From positions 1 through 64,000 of the forward strand of contig JBFLWP010000001.1 in assembly GCA_040757595.1 (NCBI GenBank): a DNA stretch of 64,000 nucleotides, in the 5' to 3' direction. Origin of the DNA: Nitrospirota bacterium. Its GTDB lineage: Bacteria; Nitrospirota; Nitrospiria; Nitrospirales; Nitrospiraceae. The notes under the pieces were generated by a model that saw nothing but the letters and a program-made list of their open reading frames with translations, did not search any database and was not told the DNA's origin. Of the stretch, positions 13,833 through 53,492 are shown piece by piece. A program made the position numbers and the translations under genes. Within the stretch, counting starts at the first letter, position 1. Each line of letters begins with the position of its first letter.

Positions 13833-15134
13833 ATGCCCAAAGGACCCCGTACACTGCGTATTACTTTTGGTGCGGAGACGCTGACTCACTATGGCGGCGT
13901 GTACCTTCTTCATCGGTTTCTCACCCGCATCGGCTTCAAACACGCGCTCGCGCAGGACATCCGCCTTGTGCAACGCAACAATCGTTACAGCGCTGGCGAG
14001 ATGTTTCTGGCCGTGCTCGACCCGATGATCCTCGGACTCGAACGGATCGAGACCACTCAACTCCTGCGGCAGAACGGCGTCTTTCAGTACCTGACCGGGC
14101 TGCCAAGCTATCCCGAGGCGACCACGCTCCGTCGCTTCCTGCTGCGGGTTGCCCCTGGCGGCCTGCAGCGGTTGCGGGCCTTGCACGATCGCGTACTCCG
14201 CCGCATGCTGAGTCAGCCCCGGCGCCCCTCGCGGCTGATCTTCGATGTCGACTCCACCGTCTTGGTGGTCTATGGCAAGCAGGAGGGGGCCCGCATTGGC
14301 TACAACCCCATCAAGCGCGGGCGGTCTTCCTATCATCCCCTGTTGTGCTTCGAGGGCCAGAGCAAGGACTTCTGGCACGGCGAATTGCGCGCGGGCGATG
14401 CCCATACCGCGACGGGCACGCGCGACCTGCTCGCGGCGTGTTTTGCGAAGATCCCGGCTGGCGTCCGGTTGACGATTGTCCGCGCGGACAAAGGGTTCTA
14501 CGACCACACGCTGGTCGAGTGGCTCGAAGCGCGGCGGGCTCGTTTCGTGATCGTCGCCCGGCTGACGGCGCCCATCAAACGCAAGCTGCCGCACCTGCGA
14601 TACACTAGCCCCAGTCGTGGCATCGAGGTTGCCGAGTTTCGCTACCAACCGACCCATTGGCCCCGTCTCTACCGGTTCGTCGTCGTCCGACGGCTCCAGC
14701 CCGAGGAACCGACGGATCAGTTGACGCTCTTCAAACTCGGCCGGTATCACTATCAGGTCCTGGTCACGAATCGCCCCTTGCGTCCCCTCAACCTCTGGCG
14801 GTTCTACAACGACCGCGCCGGGGTCGAGCTGCTCATCAAACAGCTCAAAGGGGATTACGCGATGGGCAACATCCCAACCCGCCACTTCTTTGCCAACGAG
14901 ACCTACTTCCATCTGCTCCTGCTCGCCTACAATCTGGTCAACTGGTTCCGGCGGTTGTGCTTACCAGAGGAATTTCAGCGCGCCACGTTGCAGACGTTGC
15001 GGAACAAAATCCTGCTCATGCCCGCCCAGCTTCTTCGAACTGGCAATCGCCCGCGGCTCGCTCTACCAGCTAGCGGAACCAGGCAGGCGGCATGGGAGTA
15101 CGCCATGCAGAGGATCGAACATCTCAAACTGTGA
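13833..15134 (+). CDS. IS1380-family transposase
   Basis: A 433-aa DDE transposase. The segment FDVDSTVLVVYGKQEGA ... GYNPIKRGRSSYHPL is diagnostic for IS1380. The catalytic acids are likely Asp in FDVDS, Asp in VRADKGFY and Glu in NDRAGVELLIKQLK (Y-x-x-R-x-x-x-E region). The C-terminus has the usual NYFHLLLLAYNLVNWFRRL-type helix. The frame is intact from end to end, so the element may still be mobile. Confidence 0.93.
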   Translation: MPKGPRTLRITFGAETLTHYGGVYLLHRFLTRIGFKHALAQDIRLVQRNNRYSAGEMFLAVLDPMILGLERIETTQLLRQNGVFQYLTGLPSYPEATTLRRFLLRVAPGGLQRLRALHDRVLRRMLSQPRRPSRLIFDVDSTVLVVYGKQEGARIGYNPIKRGRSSYHPLLCFEGQSKDFWHGELRAGDAHTATGTRDLLAACFAKIPAGVRLTIVRADKGFYDHTLVEWLEARRARFVIVARLTAPIKRKLPHLRYTSPSRGIEVAEFRYQPTHWPRLYRFVVVRRLQPEEPTDQLTLFKLGRYHYQVLVTNRPLRPLNLWRFYNDRAGVELLIKQLKGDYAMGNIPTRHFFANETYFHLLLLAYNLVNWFRRLCLPEEFQRATLQTLRNKILLMPAQLLRTGNRPRLALPASGTRQAAWEYAMQRIEHLKL

Positions 15135-34267: not shown

Positions 34268-35683
34268 CTACCCGCCGCCTCGTTTCCCCTGCATCTCCTT
34301 CTCGTAGAATTCGATCATCCGGGCGATCTCCTCCTTGCTCATCCCCTGCTCCACCCACTTGTGGCTCTCCTGCGAGACCAGATCCTTCGCCACGTCGGGC
34401 GACAGCTCCCGCACCATCGGCAGAAACTTGGTGTAGAAATGCTTGGCCACTTCGTAGAAGCCCTGCCAGTGGACGTAGTCCGGCGCGACCTTGGACAGCC
34501 CGTGCCTGGCCCTCCGCCCCTCATGGTGCCAGAGCTCGTAAAACACCCATTCGATCGCTTCGTCATAGGGGGTCGGCGTGATCTTTTTCATCGCGAGCAG
34601 CTTGTCCATCGCCGCCTTGGACGGCTTGCCGAATTTCTCGTTGTACAGCGTGATCCCCTGGTCCATCTGCGTGAAGAACCGCTCCACGATCTCCTCGCTG
34701 TGGCAGGAGGCGCAGACCTGGCGCATGGCCTTTCGCCGGACCTCGTAGTTCTCGAGCCGCGTCGAAACGACCGGCCGGAGGGTCCAACTGATCCGGTCGC
34801 CCACGTCGTGGGTCACCTCCTGCGTGTCGGTGGCGCTCATGTGGCAGGTGGCGCAGGTGGGGAAGAGATAGTCCTTCCCCGGGTGCCACTTCTCCGTCGG
34901 CTGGGCGAGCTTCATCTTGTCCTTGTTCGCGGTGAACAGCACGCCGTGCTTGCTCTCGTAATAGGCCTCGATCTGGGGATGGTCCGGGCCCATGTGGCAC
35001 CGCCCGCAGTTCTCCGGCTGCCGGGCCTGGGCGATCGAGAAGCCGTGCCGCGCGTGGCAGGCGGCGCAGGTGCCCTTCGACCCGTCCGGATTCACCCGCC
35101 CGATGCCCGAATTGGGCCAGGTGGACGGATGGAGCTTCCCGTTGTCCATCACCTTGACCACGCTCCCGTGGCAGCCGGCGCATCCGGTCGTGATCACTTC
35201 CGGCCCTTCCACGACGTTCCCGAGGAAATTGTCGAGGGAATTGGTGAACTGCGCCCCCTTGGCATGGTGGGACTTCTCGAACTCCCGGGCTTCCTTGTCG
35301 TGGCACCTCATGCAGTCCTTGGGCGTCACGAGCGTGGAGATGACCTTGCCGTAGTGGTCGTACGCGTCCGGCTCCCCCTTCTCGGCCTGGTGGCACTCGA
35401 CGCAACCGATGCCCTTGGGAGCGTGGCGGCTGTATTTCCAGTCGTTGATGCCGCCGACCGAGATGTCTTTCGCCGTGTGGCAGTCAATGCACTTCTTGTT
35501 CTCGGCGGAGATGAACGGCCGGAGCCCGCCTCCCCGCCGCTCCTCCACCTGGACGTAGCCGACGCCGGTCAGGGCGAGGAACAGGACCAGACACAACCCG
35601 CCGATCAAGTAGCGGGTGAAATTCAATTTCCCGTTCGGCGCGGTCACGTGGCCCTCGGACTCATCATGGCCCGGCTCTGTCAC
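34268..35683 (-). CDS. Octaheme cytochrome c of the hydroxylamine oxidoreductase family
   Basis: A 471-aa protein. One membrane anchor (residues about 24-44, YLIGGLCLVLFLALTGVGYV) precedes eight CxxCH heme motifs at 65, 94, 124, 168, 206, 226, 277 and 324. The stretch GRVNPDGSKGTCAACHARHG and PENCGRCHMGPDHPQIEAYYESKHG is the conserved core of the HAO family. The C-terminal helical region has WELWHHEGRR-like sequence (FYELWHHEGRRARHG) and APDYVHWQGFYEV. Y403 is a candidate for the heme-linking Tyr of true HAO, but this needs alignment. The membrane anchor and the cytochrome b/Rieske neighbours suggest electron exchange with quinone. Direction (oxidation of hydroxylamine or reduction of nitrite) is open. 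Confidence 0.88.
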   Translation of the reverse strand: MTEPGHDESEGHVTAPNGKLNFTRYLIGGLCLVLFLALTGVGYVQVEERRGGGLRPFISAENKKCIDCHTAKDISVGGINDWKYSRHAPKGIGCVECHQAEKGEPDAYDHYGKVISTLVTPKDCMRCHDKEAREFEKSHHAKGAQFTNSLDNFLGNVVEGPEVITTGCAGCHGSVVKVMDNGKLHPSTWPNSGIGRVNPDGSKGTCAACHARHGFSIAQARQPENCGRCHMGPDHPQIEAYYESKHGVLFTANKDKMKLAQPTEKWHPGKDYLFPTCATCHMSATDTQEVTHDVGDRISWTLRPVVSTRLENYEVRRKAMRQVCASCHSEEIVERFFTQMDQGITLYNEKFGKPSKAAMDKLLAMKKITPTPYDEAIEWVFYELWHHEGRRARHGLSKVAPDYVHWQGFYEVAKHFYTKFLPMVRELSPDVAKDLVSQESHKWVEQGMSKEEIARMIEFYEKEMQGKRGGG

Positions 35684-35789: not shown

Positions 35790-36812
35790 TCACATCCTCG
35801 TGTCCAGAATCATCAAGGCCGCGACCGCCAACACCACCGCTGTTCCGACCACCCCGTTGACCAGCGCCATCGGCCAGCCCCGTTCGGACAGGACACGATC
35901 CACGAACGGATAGGCAGCAAAGATGCCGGCGCCGGCCAGAAGACTCCAGAGGGCGACGGGCCCGGGCAGGAGCGTGATCCACATGTAGGGCGCCGAGAAG
36001 TACCAGGGCGGCGACACGTCCGTCGCGACTTCCTGGGGGTTGGCCGGCGGCCCCAGCGTGGGCGGAAAGATCATCACGAGGTCCACGAGCAGGACCAGCA
36101 GCCCGACGGCGATCGCCCCCATGGTGAGGGCGTGTTCCGGGTAGAAGGGATGGAACCCGCGGCTGCCCGGCACCTCCGCGAAGCCGGAGAGCCGGACGAC
36201 GAGCACGTGGCCGATCACGAGGCCGGCCAGCAGAACCGGCAGGAGCTTGGTGTGCAAGTCGTAGAGCCGCAGCAGCGTCCCGCCCGACACCTCCTCCCCG
36301 CCCCGCAGCAGATAGAGGAGCGGGGTGCCGACCACGGGCAAGCTCCCCAGCATGCTGGTCACGACGGTCATGCCCCAGTAGGAAACGTTGTCGTAGACCA
36401 GCGAATAGCCGGTGAATCCCATCGCGAAGGCGAGGAACAGCACGAGCGAGCCGCTCACCCATTTCCACTCGCCCGGCGGCCGATAGGCTCTGGTGACGAA
36501 GACCCGGATCACGTGGAACAGGAGGAACAGGATCATCAGGTCCACGGAGAACTTGTGCAGGCCGCGCACGAACCAGCCAAGGTAGACCTCGTGGGTGATC
36601 TGCTCCACGCTCTCGTAGGCCTTCTCGGGCGAGGGCACGTAGTAGAAGGTCAGCATGAGGCCGGTTGCCACCAGCAGGCCGAACAGGGTGAGCGGAATCG
36701 CCCCGAGCGTGTAGGGCCACCAGTCCAGGTGGGCCGGCAGGTCCTTCTGGATGTAGTCAATCCAGCTTTTCTGTCCTGCCCTGTGCTCGGCCGGTGTCGC
36801 TGCCGACTCCAT
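35790..36812 (-). CDS. Cytochrome b of a bc/b6f-type quinol complex
   Basis: A 340-aa membrane protein of about eight helices. The bis-His heme pairs are H86/H100 (x13) and H187/H202 (x14); the x14 spacing in the second pair is the b6f-like pattern. The Qo motif PEWY reads PPWY (VSPPWYFSAPY). The single chain covers both the cytochrome b6 and subunit IV parts. It acts with the Rieske protein encoded just upstream and probably passes quinol electrons to or from the octaheme protein. Word repeats lie on both sides. Confidence 0.9.
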   Translation of the reverse strand: MESAATPAEHRAGQKSWIDYIQKDLPAHLDWWPYTLGAIPLTLFGLLVATGLMLTFYYVPSPEKAYESVEQITHEVYLGWFVRGLHKFSVDLMILFLLFHVIRVFVTRAYRPPGEWKWVSGSLVLFLAFAMGFTGYSLVYDNVSYWGMTVVTSMLGSLPVVGTPLLYLLRGGEEVSGGTLLRLYDLHTKLLPVLLAGLVIGHVLVVRLSGFAEVPGSRGFHPFYPEHALTMGAIAVGLLVLLVDLVMIFPPTLGPPANPQEVATDVSPPWYFSAPYMWITLLPGPVALWSLLAGAGIFAAYPFVDRVLSERGWPMALVNGVVGTAVVLAVAALMILDTRM

Positions 36813-36830: not shown

Positions 36831-36909
36831 GTTCTCAGTTTTCAGTGATCAGTTATCAGTTATCAGTTTTAGGAACAGACTGATAACTGACGACTGACCA
36901 CTGATAACT
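36831..36909. repeat. Intergenic inverted word-repeat J (CAGTTATCAGTTATCAGT family)
   Basis: The left arm (36831-36870) is TTCAGTGATCAGTTATCAG-like tandem words. The right arm (36879-36909) is CTGATAACTGACGACTGACC-like. It fills the gap between the Rieske and cytochrome b genes and is AT-rich against the background. Confidence 0.75.
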
Positions 36910-37354
36910 AGCCGCTCTGGATGTTCACGTACAACTGGTCTCCCCGCTTCACGACCTCGAACCGATCCAGCGGGCGCGGCGGCGGCCCGGCGATGTTTCG
37001 CCCCGTCTTGTCGAAGACCCCTTGATGGCAGGGACAGAGGAACTGCTGCCGGTCCCTGTTCCAGGACACGAGACAGCCCAGGTCCGTGCAACGCCGGGAA
37101 AAGGCCGCGACGCCTTCGTCCGTCCTCAGGACCACGATCTTGTGGCCTCCGAGATCCATTGACACTCCCTCTCCCAGCGGCACGCGGGACTCGGCCCCGA
37201 TCAGGACCGCCTCGTACCGTTTCGCCTTCGGACTGGGAACCAGGAACTGGGCGAACCGCAGGGCCAGCGTTCCCATCCCGAAGAGGAGCCCGAAGGCCAT
37301 GACCGCTTGGCTAAGGAACCGGCGCCGTCCCAGGTCATCGTGGATGATGGCCAT
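36908..37354 (-). CDS. Rieske iron-sulfur protein with a His-to-Asp change in the first cluster box
   Basis: A 148-aa protein: twin-arginine N-terminus (GRRRFLSQ), one membrane helix (AVMAFGLLFGMGTLALRF), then the Rieske domain. The second box is canonical (C107-P-C109-H110-Q-G). The first box reads C89-T-D-L-G-C94 instead of C-T-H-L-G-C: codon GAC in place of CAC. His at this site is a ligand of the 2Fe-2S cluster, so the cluster would be 3-ligand plus Asp, or altered in potential. A one-base sequencing error is possible. The partner cytochrome b follows. Confidence 0.9.
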   Translation of the reverse strand: MAIIHDDLGRRRFLSQAVMAFGLLFGMGTLALRFAQFLVPSPKAKRYEAVLIGAESRVPLGEGVSMDLGGHKIVVLRTDEGVAAFSRRCTDLGCLVSWNRDRQQFLCPCHQGVFDKTGRNIAGPPPRPLDRFEVVKRGDQLYVNIQSG

Positions 37355-37373
37355 TACAATCCCTTTCACACCC

Positions 37374-37502
37374 GCGAGACGTGAAACGTGAGACGTAAAA
37401 CACTCTGGGACACGGGCCGGATTCTGCTCGCGAAAGCCTTCCTCGTTTCATCCATCACCTTTCACGTCTCACGTTTTACGTCTCCCGTCTCCCGTTTCAC
37501 GA
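37374..37502. repeat. Intergenic inverted word-repeat K (CGTTTCACGTCTCACG family)
   Basis: The left arm (37374-37401) is GAGACGTGAAACGTGAGACG-like. The right arm (37459-37502) is TTTCACGTCTCACGTTTTACG-like and longer. About 57 bp of unrelated sequence separates them. The right arm provides the stop codon of amt2. Confidence 0.75.
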
Positions 37503-38654
37503 ATAGCCCCGCTCGCCGTGCTCGGCCAGGTCCAGCCCCATGATCTCCGCTTCACCGTCCACGCGCGGCCGCATGACGAGGTGGAGCCCCTTGAGCAGCA
37601 GGAAGGTCGCGCCGGCCGCATACATCCAGACCGTCGAGACGGCCACCACCTGGACCAGGAACTGGTAGGGGTACCCATACAGCAGGCCGTCGCTTCCGTC
37701 CGGATTCACCGCCGTAGAGGCGAAGAGGCCGACCGCGATCATGCCCCACGTCCCCCCCACCGCATGCATCCCGAAGACGTCCAGCGAATCGTCATAGCCC
37801 AGGATCGGCTTCACGAAGTTCACGACCATGTAACAGGTCCCGCCGGCTCCGATGCCGATCACGAGCGCCGAGAGCGGGCTGACGTATCCGGCTGCCGGCG
37901 CGATGGCGACCAGCCCGGCCACCGCCCCGCTGACCGTGCCCAGGGCAGTCGGCTTGTCCCGCTGGGCCCACTCCGCGGCGGTCCAGGCCAGGGCCGCCGA
38001 TGCGGCCGAGACCTGAATGGCCACGAAGGCGGCGGTCACCGCCTGCATGGATGCCAGGCCGCGCCCGGCCGCGAACCCGGTCCACCCGACCCAGAGCAGC
38101 CCGGCCCCGCAGACCGACAGCGGCAGGTTGTTCGGCTTCATTTCGGTCCGCCCGAAGCCCTTCCTCGGCCCAACCACGATCGCCGCCACCAGGGCCGTGA
38201 CGCCGGCGCTGACGTGGATCACGGCCCCGCCGGCGAAGTCCAGGCCGCCCAGATCGGCCAGCCAGCCCCCGTCCCAGAGCCAGCGAGCGATCGGGCCGTA
38301 GCAGAACCAGGCCCACAGGAACCCGAAGACGAGGAAAAACGAGAACCGGACCCGTTCGACCAGCCCGCCGGCCACCAGCGCCAGGGCTAGGGCCCCAGCC
38401 ATCGTTTCGTAGACCGGCACCGGCGAGAGCCCAGCTACCCCGAACTCCATCGTCGGGAAGCCGCCCCTGAGCAGTCCTCCGAACACTCCGAGAACCGACA
38501 CGAGCAGGAGGGCCGCCAGCACCAGCCCCATCGTGTTCAGCACGTTCTTCTTCCGCACCATCCCGCCGTAAAACAGGGCCACGCCGGGGAGGGACAGGAG
38601 GAGCCATGCGGAGCAGATCAGGAGCCACCCGATCTGACTGACTTCATGCGGCAC
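37497..38654 (-). CDS. Divergent Amt-family protein with altered pore residues (copy 2)
   Basis: A 385-aa membrane protein, no signal peptide. The pore His pair is kept (AVIHVSAG and FGMHAVGGTWG), as is the ammonium-site Asp (LDFAGG). The Phe gate is changed: GWFGFNAGSA of other Amts reads GWTGFAAGRG (Phe to Thr, Ser to Arg), and the partner Phe helix reads ETMAGALALALVAGG. A different substrate range, or a sensor role, is inferred. GTG 38654 is used; a TTG at 38681 is possible. It overlaps the small winged-helix-like gene by about 11 bp. Confidence 0.82.
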   Translation of the reverse strand: MPHEVSQIGWLLICSAWLLLSLPGVALFYGGMVRKKNVLNTMGLVLAALLLVSVLGVFGGLLRGGFPTMEFGVAGLSPVPVYETMAGALALALVAGGLVERVRFSFFLVFGFLWAWFCYGPIARWLWDGGWLADLGGLDFAGGAVIHVSAGVTALVAAIVVGPRKGFGRTEMKPNNLPLSVCGAGLLWVGWTGFAAGRGLASMQAVTAAFVAIQVSAASAALAWTAAEWAQRDKPTALGTVSGAVAGLVAIAPAAGYVSPLSALVIGIGAGGTCYMVVNFVKPILGYDDSLDVFGMHAVGGTWGMIAVGLFASTAVNPDGSDGLLYGYPYQFLVQVVAVSTVWMYAAGATFLLLKGLHLVMRPRVDGEAEIMGLDLAEHGERGYS

Positions 38655-38934
38655 CGTGGATCCCCACTCCCTGTCCAACACCGGGCCCCATGCCGCCGGC
38701 AGGCCCCAGCGACACCAGATATTCGCGATTGCCGGCCCGCCGCATGGTCACCGCGCCGACCCGGCTGAGCCGATCCACCGCCAGGAACACCTGGCTCCAG
38801 CTCACGGAGGGGAGCAGAGAGGCCAACTGGTCAATGGTCCTGGCTCCGCCCATCCGCAGTGCCTGAAGCAGCGTCAGCTCAACCGACGACAGATCCCCTT
38901 GCCCCTGTCCCGTGCGGATCCCCTGCAGCGCCAT
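38644..38934 (-). CDS. Small winged-helix-like protein, first gene of the HAO/Amt operon
   Basis: A 96-aa protein: SSVELTLLQALRMGGARTIDQLASLLPSVSWSQVFLAVDRLSRVGAVTMRRAGNREYLVSL. This reads as a compact winged helix (helix, turn, recognition helix, beta wing), so DNA binding is likely. The tail is Gly-rich. It is the first gene after a sigma-54 promoter and has a good AGGAGG. It overlaps amt2. I do not recognise a named family. Confidence 0.6.
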   Translation of the reverse strand: MALQGIRTGQGQGDLSSVELTLLQALRMGGARTIDQLASLLPSVSWSQVFLAVDRLSRVGAVTMRRAGNREYLVSLGPAGGMGPGVGQGVGIHGAA

Positions 38935-38978: not shown

Positions 38979-38994
38979 AGCAAATTCAGTGCCA
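38979..38994 (-). promoter_or_regulatory. Sigma-54 promoter of the HAO/Amt operon
   Basis: On the minus strand: TGGCAC-TGAAT-TTGCT, which matches the consensus, with GG at -24 and GC at -12 (10 bp between). Transcription would begin near 38967, giving a leader of about 33 nt before the first gene. Confidence 0.88.
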
Positions 38995-39299: not shown

Positions 39300-39752
39300 T
39301 TACTTCGTCTGCTCGATGTGGGGAAGGAACTTCCCGTTCCAGGTCATCAGCACACGATCCTCCCCCTGGCTGCCCTTGATTTTTTGGATCGTGAACTTGA
39401 AGTCGATCGCCGACATGATGCCGTCGCCGAACATCTCGTGAATGACCGCGAGGATCCCGTCGCCGTAGTGCGCGCAGACTTCGGTCATCCGGTACACGTG
39501 GGGCTCTTGCAGAATGGCCGGGTCGTATGAGCGGAGCGGCGGCTTCCGCATCTCCTTGAGGAGGTCCTCGGTCAAGCCGGGGACCAGCTTCACCAGCTTG
39601 CCCTCGGTCTCCTTCTTGAGCTGCGCCTGACGACGGAACAACTGGGCCACGTAGACGTTGCAGAGCCCAAGAGCCTCCGCCAGCTCCGTATAGGTTTTTC
39701 CGGAAGCCTCCTTCAAGGCAAGGAGTTTGGCGACGACGTCCTTTTTCTCCAT
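39300..39752 (-). CDS. cynS: Cyanate hydratase (cyanase)
   Basis: A 150-aa enzyme converting cyanate and bicarbonate to ammonia and CO2. Residues 1-75 form a helix-turn-helix-like domain (TYTELAEALGLCNVYVAQLFRRQAQLK). The catalytic domain has Arg and Glu in YRMTEVCAHYG and Ser in GDGIMSAIDF, the catalytic triad positions. It lies after the ABC transporter genes, so the transporter may carry cyanate. The product ammonia links it to the three Amt and GS genes. Confidence 0.95.
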   Translation of the reverse strand: MEKKDVVAKLLALKEASGKTYTELAEALGLCNVYVAQLFRRQAQLKKETEGKLVKLVPGLTEDLLKEMRKPPLRSYDPAILQEPHVYRMTEVCAHYGDGILAVIHEMFGDGIMSAIDFKFTIQKIKGSQGEDRVLMTWNGKFLPHIEQTK

Positions 39753-39850: not shown

Positions 39851-40702
39851 TCAGAATCTCACGACGAGCGGCGCGGTTCCCGTTCCGCCTTCGTCGGCCG
39901 CGCCGGCATCGTCCCCCGCCGCGTGGGTGGCGTGACGAACCAGGAAGTGGATCACGTGGTTTCTGATCTTGTAATAGTGGGGGTGCTCGATGATCGAATC
40001 CCTCGACCTCGGCCTGGGGATCGTCACGTCGATGATCTCGGCGATGCGGGCCCCCGGCCCGTTGGTCATCAGCATGATCCGGTCCGAGAGCAGGATCGCC
40101 TCGTCCACGTCGTGCGTGACCATGAACACGGTGTTGCGGGCCGTGGTCCACATCTGGACCAGCTCCTCCTGGATCACGCCCCTGGTCAGCGCGTCGATCT
40201 GGGCGAACGGTTCGTCCAGGAGCAGAACCTTCGGCTCGATCGAGAAGGCCCGGGCCAGCCCCACCCGCTGCTTCATGCCCCCGGACAGGGCCGTCGGCCG
40301 CTTGTCCTCCGCCCCCTTCAACCCGACCAGCTCGATGTATTTGCGGACGTGCGCCGCCACCTTCTCCTGGTCCCAGTCCGGATAGGCCGCCCGCACGGCC
40401 AACCGGATGTTCTCGAACACGGTCATCCAGGGCATCAGCGAGAAGTTCTGGAAGACCACCATGCGGTCCAGGCCCGGGCCGGACACCTCCTTGCCGTTCA
40501 GGATGATGCCCCCCTCCGTCATCGTCTCCAGCCCCGCGATGATGTTCAGCAACGTGCTCTTGCCGCAGCCGGAGTGCCCGATCGTGGTGACGAACTCGCC
40601 CTTTTCGATCTTGATCGTAACGTCCTTGAAGATGCAGACCTGGCCCGTCCCGGACGGGCTCGGGAAGTACTTCGTCACGTGGTCAATCTGTAGAAACGCC
40701 AT
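39851..40702 (-). CDS. Nitrate/cyanate-type ABC transporter ATP-binding protein
   Basis: A 283-aa ATPase. Walker A GHSGCGKST, signature TALSGGMKQRVGLARA, Walker B KVLLLDEPFAQID and switch His VTHDVDEA. It is closest in layout to NrtD/CynD/SsuB ATPases. The C-terminal 25 residues (HAAGDDAGAADEGGT) are an acidic tail. It overlaps none of its neighbours; the permease stop is 3 bp upstream. It energises import of the oxyanion bound by NrtA. Confidence 0.9.
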   Translation of the reverse strand: MAFLQIDHVTKYFPSPSGTGQVCIFKDVTIKIEKGEFVTTIGHSGCGKSTLLNIIAGLETMTEGGIILNGKEVSGPGLDRMVVFQNFSLMPWMTVFENIRLAVRAAYPDWDQEKVAAHVRKYIELVGLKGAEDKRPTALSGGMKQRVGLARAFSIEPKVLLLDEPFAQIDALTRGVIQEELVQMWTTARNTVFMVTHDVDEAILLSDRIMLMTNGPGARIAEIIDVTIPRPRSRDSIIEHPHYYKIRNHVIHFLVRHATHAAGDDAGAADEGGTGTAPLVVRF

Positions 40703-40705
40703 GGC

Positions 40706-41584
40706 TTACTCCTGATAGGTGACAAGTCCGGCCAGCTTGTTGAACCCCGAATCCAGGACGACCCCCACTGCTCCCACGACGAGGATGGCGAAGATCACGC
40801 CGGCGATGTCCAGGTTGTTCCACTCGATCCAACTCAGGTACCCGACGCCCAGCTCGCCCAGCAGCATTTCCGCCGGCACGACCGCCACGAGCGCGCTCCC
40901 GAAGGAGATGCGCAGCCCGTTCACGATCGTCGGGGCCGCCCCCGGCAGGATCACCTTGTACAGACGCTTGATCCAGGACAACTGCAGGATCGCCGCCACG
41001 TGCAGATAGTCCTTGCGCAGAGAGTTGACTCCGAAGGCCGTGGTGGCGAGCGTGGGCCAGACCGCCGCCATGAAGACGACCAGGACGGCGGTCCACTTCG
41101 GGTCCCGCACCGTGTAGAGCAGCAGCGGCATCCAGGCCAGGGGAGAGATCGGCTTGAGGATCTGGATGTAGGGATTGACCGCCCGGTAGAGCACCTTGTT
41201 GAGCCCCAGGATGACCCCCAGAATGATCGCCACCACCGAGGCCGCCAGGAAGCCGGCTGCGAAGCGCGTGACCGTGTAGAGCACCAGCCAGGCGATCCCG
41301 TGGTCGTTCGTGCCCTTCTTCTCGAAGGCCTCGCCCAGCTCGACGCGGGTCTTCTCCAGCACCGTCAGCGGACCCGGCACGCCCTTGACCTTCTCCTTCT
41401 CCGGATTCCAGGCGTAGCTCCCGTCCGGATTCCGGACGATGTCTCCGTTGAACTCCATGAGTTGCAACTGCTCCTCGGTCAGCCCCTTCGGATCGAAGGC
41501 CTTCTGCAACGTCGCCACGTGCCAGACCACCAGAAACAGGATCAGCAGCGTGACCGAGATCAGCCACGTGTCTTTTCCGGCCAT
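40706..41584 (-). CDS. Nitrate/cyanate-type ABC transporter permease
   Basis: A 292-aa membrane protein. After one N-terminal helix and a hydrophilic stretch of about 80 residues (LTEEQLQLMEFNGDIVRNPDG) come five helices. The permease coupling loop is LPGAAPTIVNGLRISFGSALVAVVPAEML, the EAA-type motif. The long periplasmic insertion is unusual next to standard NrtB and may serve in binding-protein docking. Confidence 0.9.
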   Translation of the reverse strand: MAGKDTWLISVTLLILFLVVWHVATLQKAFDPKGLTEEQLQLMEFNGDIVRNPDGSYAWNPEKEKVKGVPGPLTVLEKTRVELGEAFEKKGTNDHGIAWLVLYTVTRFAAGFLAASVVAIILGVILGLNKVLYRAVNPYIQILKPISPLAWMPLLLYTVRDPKWTAVLVVFMAAVWPTLATTAFGVNSLRKDYLHVAAILQLSWIKRLYKVILPGAAPTIVNGLRISFGSALVAVVPAEMLLGELGVGYLSWIEWNNLDIAGVIFAILVVGAVGVVLDSGFNKLAGLVTYQE

Positions 41585-41593
41585 GTGATTACC

Positions 41594-42871
41594 TCATGCC
41601 ATGCTGTGGATTTTGAAGCTCTTGACGTACTGTTCCGGCTGACTGGGATCGAACACCTTGCCCATGATCGTGTGTTTCATCGCCGTCGCATTGTGAGTCG
41701 GGTAGCCCAGCTCCTTCGCGATCCGGTCGCAGTCCGCCGCCAGGTAGACCTGCTCGGCCACCGCCTTGTAGTTGACGTCCCCCTTCAGGTGCCCCCAACG
41801 CCTCATCTGGGTCAGGATCCAGATCGCCATCGAGTGCCAGGGATAGGGGTCGAAATCGATGCGGTCGGGCACCTTCTTGATGCCGCCCAGCCCGTCCGCG
41901 TAGGTGCCGGTGAGCACCTGCTCGAGCACCGTGACCGGCTGGTTCAGGTAGTTGGCCGGCGCGATCGCGGCCGCGATCTCCTTCCGGTGCGCCGGATTGG
42001 ACGCATAGTGCGTGGCGTCCACGATCGCCCGGAACAGGGCTCCGAACGTGTTCGGATAGGTCGTCGCGAATTCCTTCGACACCGTGAAGGCGCAGCAGGG
42101 ATGCCGGTCCCAGATCTCTTTCGAAAGCTTGTAGATGAACCCGACGTTCTCGTACACGGCCCGCTGGTTGAACGGGTCCGGCGCCAGGTACCCGTTCACG
42201 TTCCCGGCTTTCAGGTTCGCCACCATCTCGGGGGGCGGGACGACGCGGATCTGCACGTCCTTGTCCGGGTGGACTCCCCCATCGGCCAGGAAATACCGCA
42301 GCAGGTAGTTGTGCATGGAATAGTCGAACGGGACGCAGAACCGGAATCCCTTCATGTCTGCGGCGGTCTTCACGTCCTTGTGCTTGATGTGCAGGGTGAT
42401 GGCCTGCCCGTTGATGTTCTCCACCGCCGGCATGTAGAACGGGACCGGCACCGAGCCGGCGCCCAGCGTGATCGCGAGCGGCATCGGCGTCAGCATGTGG
42501 GCCGCGTCCACTTCCTTGTTGATCGCCCAGTCCCGGACCATGGCCCATCCCGCCGCCCGCTTCACCGACGCGTTCAGCCCGTGTTTCTTGTAAAAGCCCA
42601 GCGGCTCCGCCATGATGATCGGGGTCGCGCAGGTGATCGGAATGAAGCCGACGCTGAGATCCTTTTTCTCCGGCTTCCCGACCGGATCGGCCGCGAAGGC
42701 CGTGAGCTTCCCGAGCGGCAGCACCTCCGCGATCAGCGCCGTCAGCGCCGCCCCGCCCAATCCGGCCAGGAACTGCCGCCGACTCGGCCCCGCCGCCCGC
42801 AGGACCGCCTCGACCACGGACCGCTCGACCGTCTTCTCGAAGTACTGTTCCGAAGTCAGTTTCGGCTCCAT
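41594..42871 (-). CDS. NrtA-type substrate-binding protein (nitrate/nitrite/cyanate)
   Basis: A 425-aa exported protein with a twin-arginine signal (SRRQFLAGLGGAALTALI). The NrtA/CynA-type lobe motifs are present: VGFIPITCATPIIMAEPLGFYKKHGLNASV, HMLTPMPLAITLGAGS and DRHPCCAFTVSKEFATTYPN. The family binds nitrate, nitrite, bicarbonate or cyanate. The adjacent cynS favours cyanate or nitrite here. It lies 19 bp downstream of the NifA-like gene. Confidence 0.9.
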   Translation of the reverse strand: MEPKLTSEQYFEKTVERSVVEAVLRAAGPSRRQFLAGLGGAALTALIAEVLPLGKLTAFAADPVGKPEKKDLSVGFIPITCATPIIMAEPLGFYKKHGLNASVKRAAGWAMVRDWAINKEVDAAHMLTPMPLAITLGAGSVPVPFYMPAVENINGQAITLHIKHKDVKTAADMKGFRFCVPFDYSMHNYLLRYFLADGGVHPDKDVQIRVVPPPEMVANLKAGNVNGYLAPDPFNQRAVYENVGFIYKLSKEIWDRHPCCAFTVSKEFATTYPNTFGALFRAIVDATHYASNPAHRKEIAAAIAPANYLNQPVTVLEQVLTGTYADGLGGIKKVPDRIDFDPYPWHSMAIWILTQMRRWGHLKGDVNYKAVAEQVYLAADCDRIAKELGYPTHNATAMKHTIMGKVFDPSQPEQYVKSFKIHSMA

Positions 42872-42890
42872 CTGGCGCGCTCCTTTCGTT

Positions 42891-44102
42891 TCACGTTGAC
42901 GGTTCACGAATCCCGTACTTCCTCATCTTGTAGGCCACCTGCCGCGGGGTGAGGCCCAGCCCCCGGGCCGCCCGCGCCTGCACCCAGCCGGCCTGCGCCA
43001 GGGCCTCCACGAGCCGGCGGCGCTCCAGGGCCTGCACGCTCTGGCCCAGCGACCCCCCGGACGGCTCGCTCCCCCCGGGCTCCCGGCCCCCTTGCGTCAC
43101 CTGCCACAGGTCCGCAAAGTAGCCCCGCAGGGAGGAGGGCAGCCGCTCCAGCGTCACCCACTCCTGGCCCGGCTCGGCCATCACCACCAGCCGCTCCACA
43201 CAGTTTTGCAGCTCCCGCACGTTGCCGGGCCAGTGATAGCGGGCCATCAGGGCCAGCAGCTCCGGCCCCAGCCGGACCCGCCGCCGATTCTCCCGGTTGA
43301 ACCGCGCCAGGAAGTGCGCGATGAGCAGGGGCACGTCCCCCGCCCGCTCCCGCAGCGGCGGCAGCGTGACCGGCACGACGTTGAGCCGGTAATAAAGGTC
43401 CTCCCGGAAGGTCCCGGCCCGCACCAGCGCCTCCAGATCCCGGTGCGTGGCCGAGATCACCCGTACGTCCACCTGGATGGGCCTCGTGCCCCCCACCCGC
43501 TCGAAGCACCGGTCCTGGAGCACGCGCAGGAGCTTGACCTGGGTCGCCGGCGGAATGTCGCCGATCTCGTCCAGGAACAGGGTCCCCCCGTCCGCCAACT
43601 CGAACCGCCCCTTGCGGCTCTCCACCGCTCCGGTAAAGGCCCCCCGTTCGTGCCCGAACAGCTCGCTCTCCAACAGCGTCTCGGTCAGCGCCGCACAATG
43701 GAGCCGCACGAACGGGCCCCGGGCCCGGGGACTCTCCAGATGGATCGCTTTCGCCACCAGTTCCTTGCCGGTGCCGCTCTCCCCGCGCAGCAGCACGGTG
43801 GCCGGACTGTGACTCACGCGCCGGATGGCCTCGTAGACTTGCCGCATCGCCTCGCTCTGCCCGACGAGGCTCGCATGGAGCCCGCCGCCCGCGCTCCCAC
43901 AGGCGCCGCCGCCCGCCGCCCCTGCCGGTTCCTGGCTCAGATCCCCCCGGGCCCGCAGGCACCGCAGGCGCGCGCGGACCAAGTCCAGCCCCTCCTCCAG
44001 CCGGGCCTGCACGGGCCCCGGCTTGGTCAAGGCGGCCGCGATCGCTTCCAGCACCGTCCACTCCTGCAGCACCTGCTCCTCCACCACATCCGCCACACGC
44101 AT
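42891..44102 (-). CDS. Sigma-54-dependent activator, NifA-like, without N-terminal sensor domain
   Basis: A 403-aa protein. Residues 1-80 hold no recognised sensor (only helical and Gly/Ala-rich sequence). The AAA+ domain follows: Walker A GESGTGKE (107-114), GAFTGA (154-159), Walker B GGTLFLDEIG (172-181) and the arginine region REDLYYRLNVVPVTLPPLRER. The C-terminal helix-turn-helix ARAARGLGLTPRQVAYKMRKYGI is of NifA type. The start at 44102 is preceded by a regulated leader (44148-44257). It probably binds the TGT-N10-ACA site at 39064. It is the first gene of nrtABC-cynS. Confidence 0.88.
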   Translation of the reverse strand: MRVADVVEEQVLQEWTVLEAIAAALTKPGPVQARLEEGLDLVRARLRCLRARGDLSQEPAGAAGGGACGSAGGGLHASLVGQSEAMRQVYEAIRRVSHSPATVLLRGESGTGKELVAKAIHLESPRARGPFVRLHCAALTETLLESELFGHERGAFTGAVESRKGRFELADGGTLFLDEIGDIPPATQVKLLRVLQDRCFERVGGTRPIQVDVRVISATHRDLEALVRAGTFREDLYYRLNVVPVTLPPLRERAGDVPLLIAHFLARFNRENRRRVRLGPELLALMARYHWPGNVRELQNCVERLVVMAEPGQEWVTLERLPSSLRGYFADLWQVTQGGREPGGSEPSGGSLGQSVQALERRRLVEALAQAGWVQARAARGLGLTPRQVAYKMRKYGIREPST

Positions 44103-44147: not shown

Positions 44148-44218
44148 AAAAAAAGGCGCCAGGATTCCGGAGCAGGAGCCCGCCCGCAGGCGACTCCCAC
44201 CCGGTCCTGGCGCCGTTG
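44148..44218 (-). terminator. Intrinsic terminator that competes with hexaloop P2
   Basis: GGCGCCAGGA (44205-44214, minus strand) pairs with TCCTGGCGCC (44155-44164), followed by seven T (44148-44154). The long internal loop holds a secondary hairpin. The 5' arm includes half of the P2 hexaloop and its 3' stem, so the two folds exclude each other. Confidence 0.85.
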
Positions 44219-44257
44219 CCACGGGAGGGGACCCGACGCCGTTGTCGGGCCCCCTCC
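44206..44257 (-). ncRNA. ANTAR-type dual-hexaloop leader RNA
   Basis: P1 (44224-44257): a 14-bp stem with one G-U pair and loop AACGGC. P2 (44206-44224): stem TGGC/GCCA, extendable past a bulged G, and the same loop AACGGC. Both loops have A at position 1 and G at position 4, the pattern recognised by ANTAR antiterminators. The two hairpins are adjacent, and P2 overlaps the terminator arm. The leader lies between glnA and the activator gene. Confidence 0.82.
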
Positions 44258-44311: not shown

Positions 44312-45721
<1,410 letters not shown>

Positions 45722-45749
45722 TCCACGCCTCCTTTCCTCATCCACCTAA

Positions 45750-52202: not shown

Positions 52203-52230
52203 TGTATCATCGGCCAGCCCGACCTGTCAA
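52203..52230 (-). promoter_or_regulatory. Sigma-70-like promoter of nadE
   Basis: On the minus strand TTGACA (52225-52230) and GATACA (52203-52208), spacer 16 bp. It overlaps the stop of the ANTAR gene and would give a leader of about 165 nt before nadE. Confidence 0.6.
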
Positions 52231-53492
52231 GCCCTTTTTCGGTCGACCTGCCGTTCGATGCCGATCGCCAGGATCACGGCTTCGGCGATCTCGCGCATGG
52301 ATTTCCTGGTGTCCATGCTCTGGCGCTGCATCAGGCGGAAGGCGTCTTCTTCCGAGATGCCCTTGGCTTGCATGAGGCAGCCCTTGGCCCGCTCCACCAG
52401 CTTCCTGACCTCGAGGGCCTCCTGCATCTCGAAGGACTTCTCCACGAGCTTGGCGTTCTCGATCGCGATGGCCGCCTGGTTGGCCACGGCCTGCAGGACC
52501 TTGATCTCCTCGGCGGTGAAGGTGTGGGGCACGGAAGTGTAACTGTTGATGACCCCGACCGCCCGGTCACGGATGAGCATCGGGACCGACACCAGCGAGC
52601 AGAGCCCCTCCTTGCGGGCGATCTCCGGGTACATGTAGTCCCGCTCCTTGGTGACGTCCGGCACGATGATGGGACGGCGCTCCTGCACGGCCCGGCCGCT
52701 GATGCTCTGCCCGACCTTCAGGTTCGGCTTGCGGCGGTATTGCTCGCTCAGGCTCTGCGTGGCCATGATGCGCAGCTCGTCGCTCTCCGGGTCCAGCAGC
52801 ATAATCGAGCAGATCTTGGAGTTCAGCATCTGCGCGGTCACCGTCACGATCAGTTGCAGGATGTCCTGCAGCAGCCGGTTCGAGGCCACGGTCTCCGAGA
52901 CCTGCGAGAGCGTGTCCACCTGCACGGCCTTGCGCTTCATCTCGGCGTAGAGCCTGGCGTTTTCGATGGCGCCGCCCACCTGGTTCGCGATCGTCGAGAG
53001 TAGGGCCAGCTCGTCGGGCCGATACCGGCGGGGGCGCTTGTGCTGCACGTTGATCACGCCCACGACCTCGTTCTTCGCCATGATCGGCACCGAGACGAAG
53101 GCCTGGTACCGGTCCTCGGGCAGGTTGTGGAAGAACTTGAACCGGGGATCGTCGTTGGCGTTGCTGGGGATCACGACCCGCGTGCGCTCGCGCGCCACCC
53201 AGCCGGTGATCCCCTCTCCCAGCCCGATCGTGATCCGCCCGATCAGCCGGGGATGGGGATTCTTGGACGCGCGCAGGATCAGCTCCTCCCGGCTCTCGGA
53301 GAGCAGGTAGAGCAGGCAGGCGTCGGCCTTGGTGACCTCCACCACCACCTCGACGATGTGCTTGAGCACCGCTTCCAGGTCGAGCGTCCCGCTGATGGAC
53401 TCGCTGATCCGGTGCAGCACGTCCACCTCGCGGGTCTTCTCCCGCAGGGCCTGCTCGAGCTGTTGGGGTGAGGGCGTCCGCTTGGAAATCAT
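52227..53492 (-). CDS. GAF-GAF-ANTAR protein, putative RNA-binding antiterminator
   Basis: A 421-aa protein. Two GAF sensor domains (residues about 35-190 and 205-350; VTKADACLLYLLSESREELILRAS, MLNSKICSIMLLDPESDELRI) are followed by an ANTAR domain (about 360-415; VRKLVERAKGCLMQAKGISEEDAFRLMQRQSMDTRKSMREIAEAV). ANTAR domains bind paired RNA hexaloops and stop terminator formation. A dual-hexaloop leader lies 8 kb downstream on the same strand. The start overlaps the aroB stop as ATGA. The ligand of the GAF domains is not known; a nitrogen signal is inferred. Confidence 0.9.
   Translation of the reverse strand: MISKRTPSPQQLEQALREKTREVDVLHRISESISGTLDLEAVLKHIVEVVVEVTKADACLLYLLSESREELILRASKNPHPRLIGRITIGLGEGITGWVARERTRVVIPSNANDDPRFKFFHNLPEDRYQAFVSVPIMAKNEVVGVINVQHKRPRRYRPDELALLSTIANQVGGAIENARLYAEMKRKAVQVDTLSQVSETVASNRLLQDILQLIVTVTAQMLNSKICSIMLLDPESDELRIMATQSLSEQYRRKPNLKVGQSISGRAVQERRPIIVPDVTKERDYMYPEIARKEGLCSLVSVPMLIRDRAVGVINSYTSVPHTFTAEEIKVLQAVANQAAIAIENAKLVEKSFEMQEALEVRKLVERAKGCLMQAKGISEEDAFRLMQRQSMDTRKSMREIAEAVILAIGIERQVDRKRA

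Follow-up and report, generated by a model that had tools for sequence, protein, structure and literature searches.

A probable ANTAR-target RNA leader ahead of a sigma-54 activator gene, and its relatives at nitrogen-assimilation loci of Nitrospira-type bacteria

Background

In the NasR and NasT systems the sensor is either a nitrate-binding domain or the partner protein NasS, and the target genes are gated directly. In the eut leaders of Enterococcus faecalis, the targets of EutV/EutW, two hexaloop hairpins (P1 and P2) have an A at position 1 and a G at position 4 of the loop (A1/G4) and P2 lies inside an intrinsic terminator (PMC3369931, PMC8934654), an arrangement shared by the leader described here. 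Arg142, Lys149 and Glu160 of EutV hold the G4 base and Met172 acts as a plug of the loop (PMC8934654). Ramesh et al. (2012) noted that proteins of the GAF-ANTAR and PAS-ANTAR kinds were all still uncharacterised at that time (PMC3369931). Our literature search found nothing tying ANTAR proteins or antitermination to the nitrogen genes of Nitrospira-type bacteria, which account for much of the nitrite oxidation and complete ammonia oxidation worldwide.

We have analysed a 64-kb stretch of a Nitrospirota genome (the window, at its full length) for which a reading made from the letters alone (hereafter the sequence-only reading) had proposed an ANTAR-type dual-hexaloop leader between glnA and a NifA-like activator gene. 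Conservation, covariation and co-occurrence with the ANTAR gene support this proposal.

Structure of the leader

The leader is found on the minus strand between glnA and the sigma-54 activator gene. Its anatomy, read from the sequence and from folding, comprises P1, P2 and an overlapping terminator (Table 1). The two adjacent hairpins with identical AACGGC loops that had been proposed are present, with the loops at 44243-44238 and 44217-44212, both of them A1/G4. The 14-bp stem of P1 is also as described (5' arm 44257-44244, 3' arm 44237-44224). P2 had been placed at 44206-44224, and here the hairpin stands but its extent does not, as it consists of UGGC (44221-44218), the loop and GCCA (44211-44208) and does not touch P1. 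The P1-P2 linker is thus 2 nt below the 14-bp P1, within the range of about 2-25 nt given for ANTAR-target RNAs (PMC8164766). Most relatives form a fifth P2 pair, where the window has a G-G mismatch. Likewise, P2 does share its 3' arm with a seven-T terminator, whereas the span of 44148-44218 assigned to the latter has to be replaced by a stem at 44214-44155 followed by the T tract at 44154-44148. The 5' arm of this terminator is made of the last three bases of the P2 loop (GGC) plus the P2 3' arm, so P2 and the terminator are mutually exclusive.

The leader (212 nt) had a minimum free energy of -131.4, compared with -109.5 on average for shuffled sequences (z -5.0), and 0 of 200 shuffles were as low. 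Folding from P1 to the U-tract gave both of the alternative states that the sequence-only reading had envisaged, the terminator state at -83.1 and the P1+P2 state at -68.2 kcal/mol. Furthermore, a descriptor of a dual hexaloop with an overlapping terminator matched only once in the 64-kb window, at the leader, and never in 120 dinucleotide shuffles. The leader has every feature of an ANTAR-target RNA that can be examined in a sequence. An Rfam scan of the window gave no family for it at the gathering threshold and nothing useful at a relaxed one; a weak match to the narK RNA at 44209-44250 (14.5 bits, E 3.1, threshold 43.2) is possibly due to hexaloop hairpins in the narK leader too.

An ANTAR protein might bind such a leader and repress it, or act on RNA stability or translation and not by antitermination. 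Mycobacterial ANTAR binding represses translation (PMC8164766), and in some relatives P2 is paired with a hairpin that blocks the Shine-Dalgarno site. However, the alternative to P2 in the window is a seven-T intrinsic terminator located about 46 nt ahead of the activator start codon, and the motif contains no ribosome site, leaving only a slim chance for this explanation.

Table 1 Features of the leader and of the neighbouring genes (positions in the window)
Feature	Position	Strand	Remarks
GAF-GAF-ANTAR protein, proposed reader of the leader	52227-53492	minus	Only ANTAR protein of the genome
glnA, glutamine synthetase	44312-45745	minus	Upstream gene
P1 hairpin	44224-44257	minus	14 bp; hexaloop AACGGC; from sequence and folding; upper 7 bp covary in relatives
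P2 hairpin	44208-44221	minus	UGGC-AACGGC-GCCA, 4 bp; from sequence and folding
Terminator stem-loop	44155-44214	minus	5' arm made of the end of the P2 loop and the P2 3' arm
U-tract, seven T	44148-44154	minus	End of the terminator
Sigma-54 activator, NifA-like AAA+	42891-44102	minus	GAFTGA, Fis-type HTH, no N-terminal sensor domain
nrtA-like substrate-binding protein	41594-42907	minus
nrtB-like permease	40706-41584	minus
nrtC/D ATP-binding protein	39851-40702	minus	TIGR01184 over cut-off
cynS, cyanate lyase	39300-39752	minus
Sigma-54 promoter	38979-38994	minus	TGGCAC-N5-TTGCT, exact consensus; conserved in activator-bearing relatives
Small conserved protein	38644-38934	minus	First gene after the sigma-54 promoter; no NCBIfam family, longer ORF without Pfam match
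amt, ammonium transporter	37497-38681	minus	Translation read directly; homologous genes in relatives
Rieske protein	36908-37369	minus	Translation read directly
Cytochrome b-like protein	35790-36812	minus	Translation read directly
Octaheme cytochrome, HAO/HDH kind	34268-35683	minus	8 CxxCH motifs

Conservation and covariation of the leader

The family search detected activator orthologs (64-73% identity, with paralogs at about 50%) in 11 other genomes of the family, and in 10 of them the same leader precedes the gene. The exception, G026, has the ortholog after an amt gene on a 3.3-kb contig, without a recognisable leader (L013 / L199). In G025 glnK, not glnA, is found upstream of leader and activator, indicating that the leader belongs to the activator and not to glnA. 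The P1-P2 linker is enlarged in four relatives (G012, G019, G021 and G031), to 34-64 nt, or 47 nt between loops, and a third hairpin fills it in most of them (the contig of G021 stops short of the downstream gene). At loci L004, L008, L009 and L183 P1 and P2 are separated by a third hairpin or some other insert, with linkers of 34-64 nt, a length at which EutV reportedly no longer functions. These linkers in four relatives beyond the EutV tolerance, together with the short 4-bp P2 helix, are points against an ANTAR-target RNA, although the third hairpin could hold the loops near each other.

A covariance model built from eight leaders detected further leaders in many additional family members and, over 270 genomes of the class, none outside the family. 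Covariation was then analysed in a family-wide set of 28 different P1+P2 units. Pairing in this set was 98.8%, and in P1 5 of the 7 pairs and 22 cells were changed on both sides, a level that 0 of 500 shuffles reached and to which slid controls came nowhere near. The sixth pair from the loop, for example, was seen as CG, AU, UA, GU, GC and UG. G4 was present in both loops of all 28 units, and A1 in all of the P2 loops and 26 of the 28 P1 loops. P2 showed no compensatory pairs and a nearly invariant helix, varying too little for covariation since it is also constrained by the terminator. On the eight compact orthologs alone the covariation was not significant, as the sequences are too alike and the wider set was needed. 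The sequence-only reading had staked its proposal on covarying stems and A1/G4 loops in the homologues, and as far as sequence can show the homologues bear it out, with the leader retained, a covarying P1, a constant G4 and an A1 in nearly every loop. In two genomes of one genus the P1 loop starts with G (GAAGGG, GATGTT) and A1 is kept in P2 (L172:5255-5300 and 13864-13910; L200:5268 and 13878).

The search of leader and homologues with a covariance model, another check that had been suggested, found the window leader too. A second model, made from 14 leaders and excluding the window, scored its leader at 41.4 bits (E 7e-8, the E-values of the model being rough) and the next site of the same genome at 19.2 bits. 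This genome has one strong leader site and one ANTAR protein. Applied to the ANTAR-bearing genomes in search of more leaders, the same model rarely rose above a background of about 20 bits, because a second leader type has other stem sequences, seen when glnA-nrtA gaps were read by eye. A scan of other genomes with the activator as query retrieved mainly generic sigma-54 activators of other phyla.

The GAF-GAF-ANTAR protein and its co-occurrence with leaders

The GAF-GAF-ANTAR protein was found where the sequence-only reading had located it, and its ANTAR domain (PF03861) scored 76.3 bits against a cut-off of 27.3. Aligned by hand with EutV, it keeps Arg142, Lys143, Lys149, Glu160, Met172 and Arg175. 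Lys147, Tyr164 and Asn173 are replaced by Arg, Phe and Asp, respectively, and Arg168 and Arg177 by Gln and Ser, these last two changes counting against the assignment as reader. The first GAF domain is closest to those of PtsP and NifA. Since glutamine binds the GAF domain of PtsP (PMC4848567), a nitrogen signal would be a reasonable guess for the small molecule putatively sensed by the GAF domains, with glutamine and 2-oxoglutarate as the leading candidates. The single-sequence AlphaFold model (mean pLDDT 44) was poor outside the ANTAR helices and accordingly we drew no ligand inference from it.

Among 144 genomes of the family 99 encode an ANTAR domain, nearly always in one copy. A leader of either type was detected in 74 of these 99 genomes and in only 2 of the 45 without ANTAR (Fisher p = 2e-16, a value that overstates independence because the genomes are related). 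In one genus (g6) the contrast was complete, with leaders in 9/9 ANTAR-bearing genomes and 0/39 of the others; most of its members thus have neither the GAF-GAF-ANTAR gene nor any detected leader and make a natural comparison set. Many of the relatives' genomes are incomplete. Twenty-five ANTAR-bearing genomes of the 144 had no detected leader, and the two leader-bearing genomes without a detected ANTAR gene are 89% and 82% complete. Outside this set there were two more of the latter kind, one of them 87% complete; the other, in which the leader match is weak, is 90% complete with 6% contamination.

These data bear on two further explanations. The leader could be an ordinary glnA terminator with chance hairpins, the activator having its own promoter, and there is indeed a strong terminator in the first intergenic gap after glnA. 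But P1 takes no part in this terminator and is nevertheless conserved, showing compensatory changes and a fixed G4, the leader stays with the activator in G025 where glnA is not upstream, similar leaders are found ahead of other nitrogen genes, and leader presence tracks the ANTAR gene, all of which makes mere coincidence very improbable. To the same very small degree one could credit a riboswitch, or an attenuator of some other protein, that senses the signal itself and is only indirectly linked to ANTAR: a novel aptamer is formally possible given the lack of an Rfam match at threshold, but the conserved part is two small A1/G4 hexaloop hairpins and little else, with no junction or pocket, published work identifies the dual A1/G4 hexaloop as the element that ANTAR proteins recognise (PMC3369931), and nearly all genomes lacking the ANTAR gene lack leaders too.

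The activator operon and the sigma-54 promoter downstream

The activator likely starts at the ATG at 44102 and has a PF00158 AAA+ domain with GAFTGA plus an HTH_8 domain. The designation NifA-like is justified by similarity but goes no further, since the match to NifA (TIGR01817) covers only residues 76-399 with 458.9 bits, below the cut-off of 528.85, and the GAF domain of NifA is missing. Lacking a sensor domain, the protein probably conveys the signal through its abundance.

A step beyond the sequence-only reading is the conserved sigma-54 promoter located after cynS and ahead of the amt/octaheme-cytochrome operon. An exact promoter of this kind is expected 0.06 times per window. The site is found at the same position in 8/8 activator-bearing genomes (one with two mismatches) and in 0/6 activator-less loci (p = 3e-4), and on this ground the leader probably gates a relay from the GAF-ANTAR protein through the sensorless sigma-54 activator to the nitrite-assimilation operon. 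Other sigma-54 activators are also encoded in the genome, so we infer the pairing of the leader-gated one with the promoter at 38979-38994. The octaheme cytochrome of the operon is probably an octaheme nitrite reductase (ONR), an enzyme that a published study places close to glnA in N. japonica and N. moscoviensis (PMC5767232). In two activator-less genomes (G011 and G020) a type I leader is found directly ahead of the amt/octaheme-cytochrome operon, which suggests a rewiring in which the same end genes are placed under ANTAR either directly or via the sigma-54 relay.

Leaders elsewhere in the family

The leader-bearing loci that we examined are nitrogen-assimilation loci. In activator-less relatives the leaders are placed directly on nrtA, nirC or amt genes. 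Several of these genomes have the second leader type in the glnA-nrtA or glnA-nirC gap. Its P1, for example GUUCAGGC-AACGGC-GCCUGAAC, is followed by a spacer of a few tens of nucleotides and by a P2 of the form ACGGAC-AANGGC-GUCCGU within a terminator, and in most cases by a further hexaloop, GGAC-AANGGC-GUCC, within a second terminator. The P2 core pattern was found in 60 of the 144 genomes and not once in the reversed control. Tandem leaders of this type (P2 core ACGGACAANGGCGUCCGU) are located between glnA and nrtA/nirC at L225:13150-13440, L226:8815-9160, L231:16919-17262 and L190:5820-6190, with hexaloops in successive terminators.

Among 40 type I leaders 22 have no terminator, and where the downstream genes were examined these are mostly found before DUF6733-amtB (L171:5449-5600, L172:5255-5390, L176:11531-11400 and L232:16083-16128, among others). 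Here the pairing partner of the P2 3' arm is GGAGG(C/U)G(C/U)CAUG, so that the Shine-Dalgarno site and the start codon are covered, as in the pairing of GGCGCCAGAG with CUCUUUGGAGGCGUCAUG. ANTAR binding should open this blocking hairpin and turn translation on. An engineered circuit built on NmPAL, a light-controlled ANTAR receptor, activates translation in this way (PMC11381354); in the literature we found no natural example of a positive translational ANTAR mode, this engineered circuit being the only one.

On balance we favour a scheme in which a single GAF-GAF-ANTAR protein and a single dual-hexaloop element would serve two outputs in Nitrospira and related bacteria. P2 would compete with a terminator ahead of nrtA, nirC, amt or the sigma-54 activator, and with a hairpin masking the Shine-Dalgarno site and start codon ahead of DUF6733-amtB, where translation would be turned on. 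The amt/octaheme-cytochrome operon would be under sigma-54 where the activator is present, and under a direct leader in two genomes without it.

Proposed mechanism and significance

The combined evidence makes it highly likely that the leader is an ANTAR-target RNA at which binding of the active GAF-GAF-ANTAR protein leads to antitermination into the activator gene, nrtABC and cynS, and from there to the sigma-54 promoter. By default the nascent RNA would fold P1 and then the terminator, and transcription, either read through from glnA or begun at a local promoter, would end near 44148. A nitrogen signal would activate the GAF-GAF-ANTAR protein, which would bind the A1/G4 hexaloops of P1 and P2. 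P2 would then occupy the terminator bases and the polymerase would continue into the sigma-54 activator, nrtABC and cynS. Finally, the activator would fire the promoter at 38979-38994, giving expression of the small ORF and the amt, Rieske, cytochrome b and octaheme cytochrome genes. Very probably, then, the ANTAR protein binds this switch, which would tie nitrogen status to the uptake of nitrite, cyanate and ammonium.

The kind of RNA is known; what is new here is the lineage, the putative GAF-ANTAR partner and sigma-54 relay, and a family-wide regulon with two types of output. One GAF-ANTAR protein now has a defined candidate RNA partner. With regulator, RNA target, regulon and downstream sigma-54 promoter all named, the system can be tested in vitro and in cultured Nitrospira.

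Comparison with known ANTAR systems

Like the protein encoded in the window, EutV is an ANTAR reader with the same G4-contacting residues (PMC8934654). EutV is a phosphorylated response regulator, whereas the window reader is a one-component GAF-GAF-ANTAR protein. The window leader also differs from the eut leaders in its target, nitrogen assimilation via a sigma-54 activator, and some of its relatives in their third linker hairpin. Closer in function are the leaders of Klebsiella NasR/nasF and of Paracoccus and Bradyrhizobium NasT, where ANTAR antitermination likewise controls nitrate/nitrite assimilation genes (PMC7496416, PMC3795266, PMC6759348); by comparison, the window reader has GAF domains and its system a putative sigma-54 relay.

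The actinobacterial ANTAR-target RNAs contain the same motif, and some of them control transcription factors while some overlap the ribosome site (PMC8164766). In contrast to these, the window leader is predicted to act on termination. ANTAR binding in actinobacteria is described as repressing translation (PMC8164766), whereas the Shine-Dalgarno leaders of the relatives look built for activation. Finally, Ramesh et al. (PMC3369931), whose main text does not name Nitrospira, predicted nitrogen ANTAR regulons in Desulfotomaculum and Pelobacter, where the leaders precede genes for PII, amt, nitrite transport and glutamine synthesis. The regulon proposed here differs from those in being a compact cluster under a single ANTAR protein per genome.
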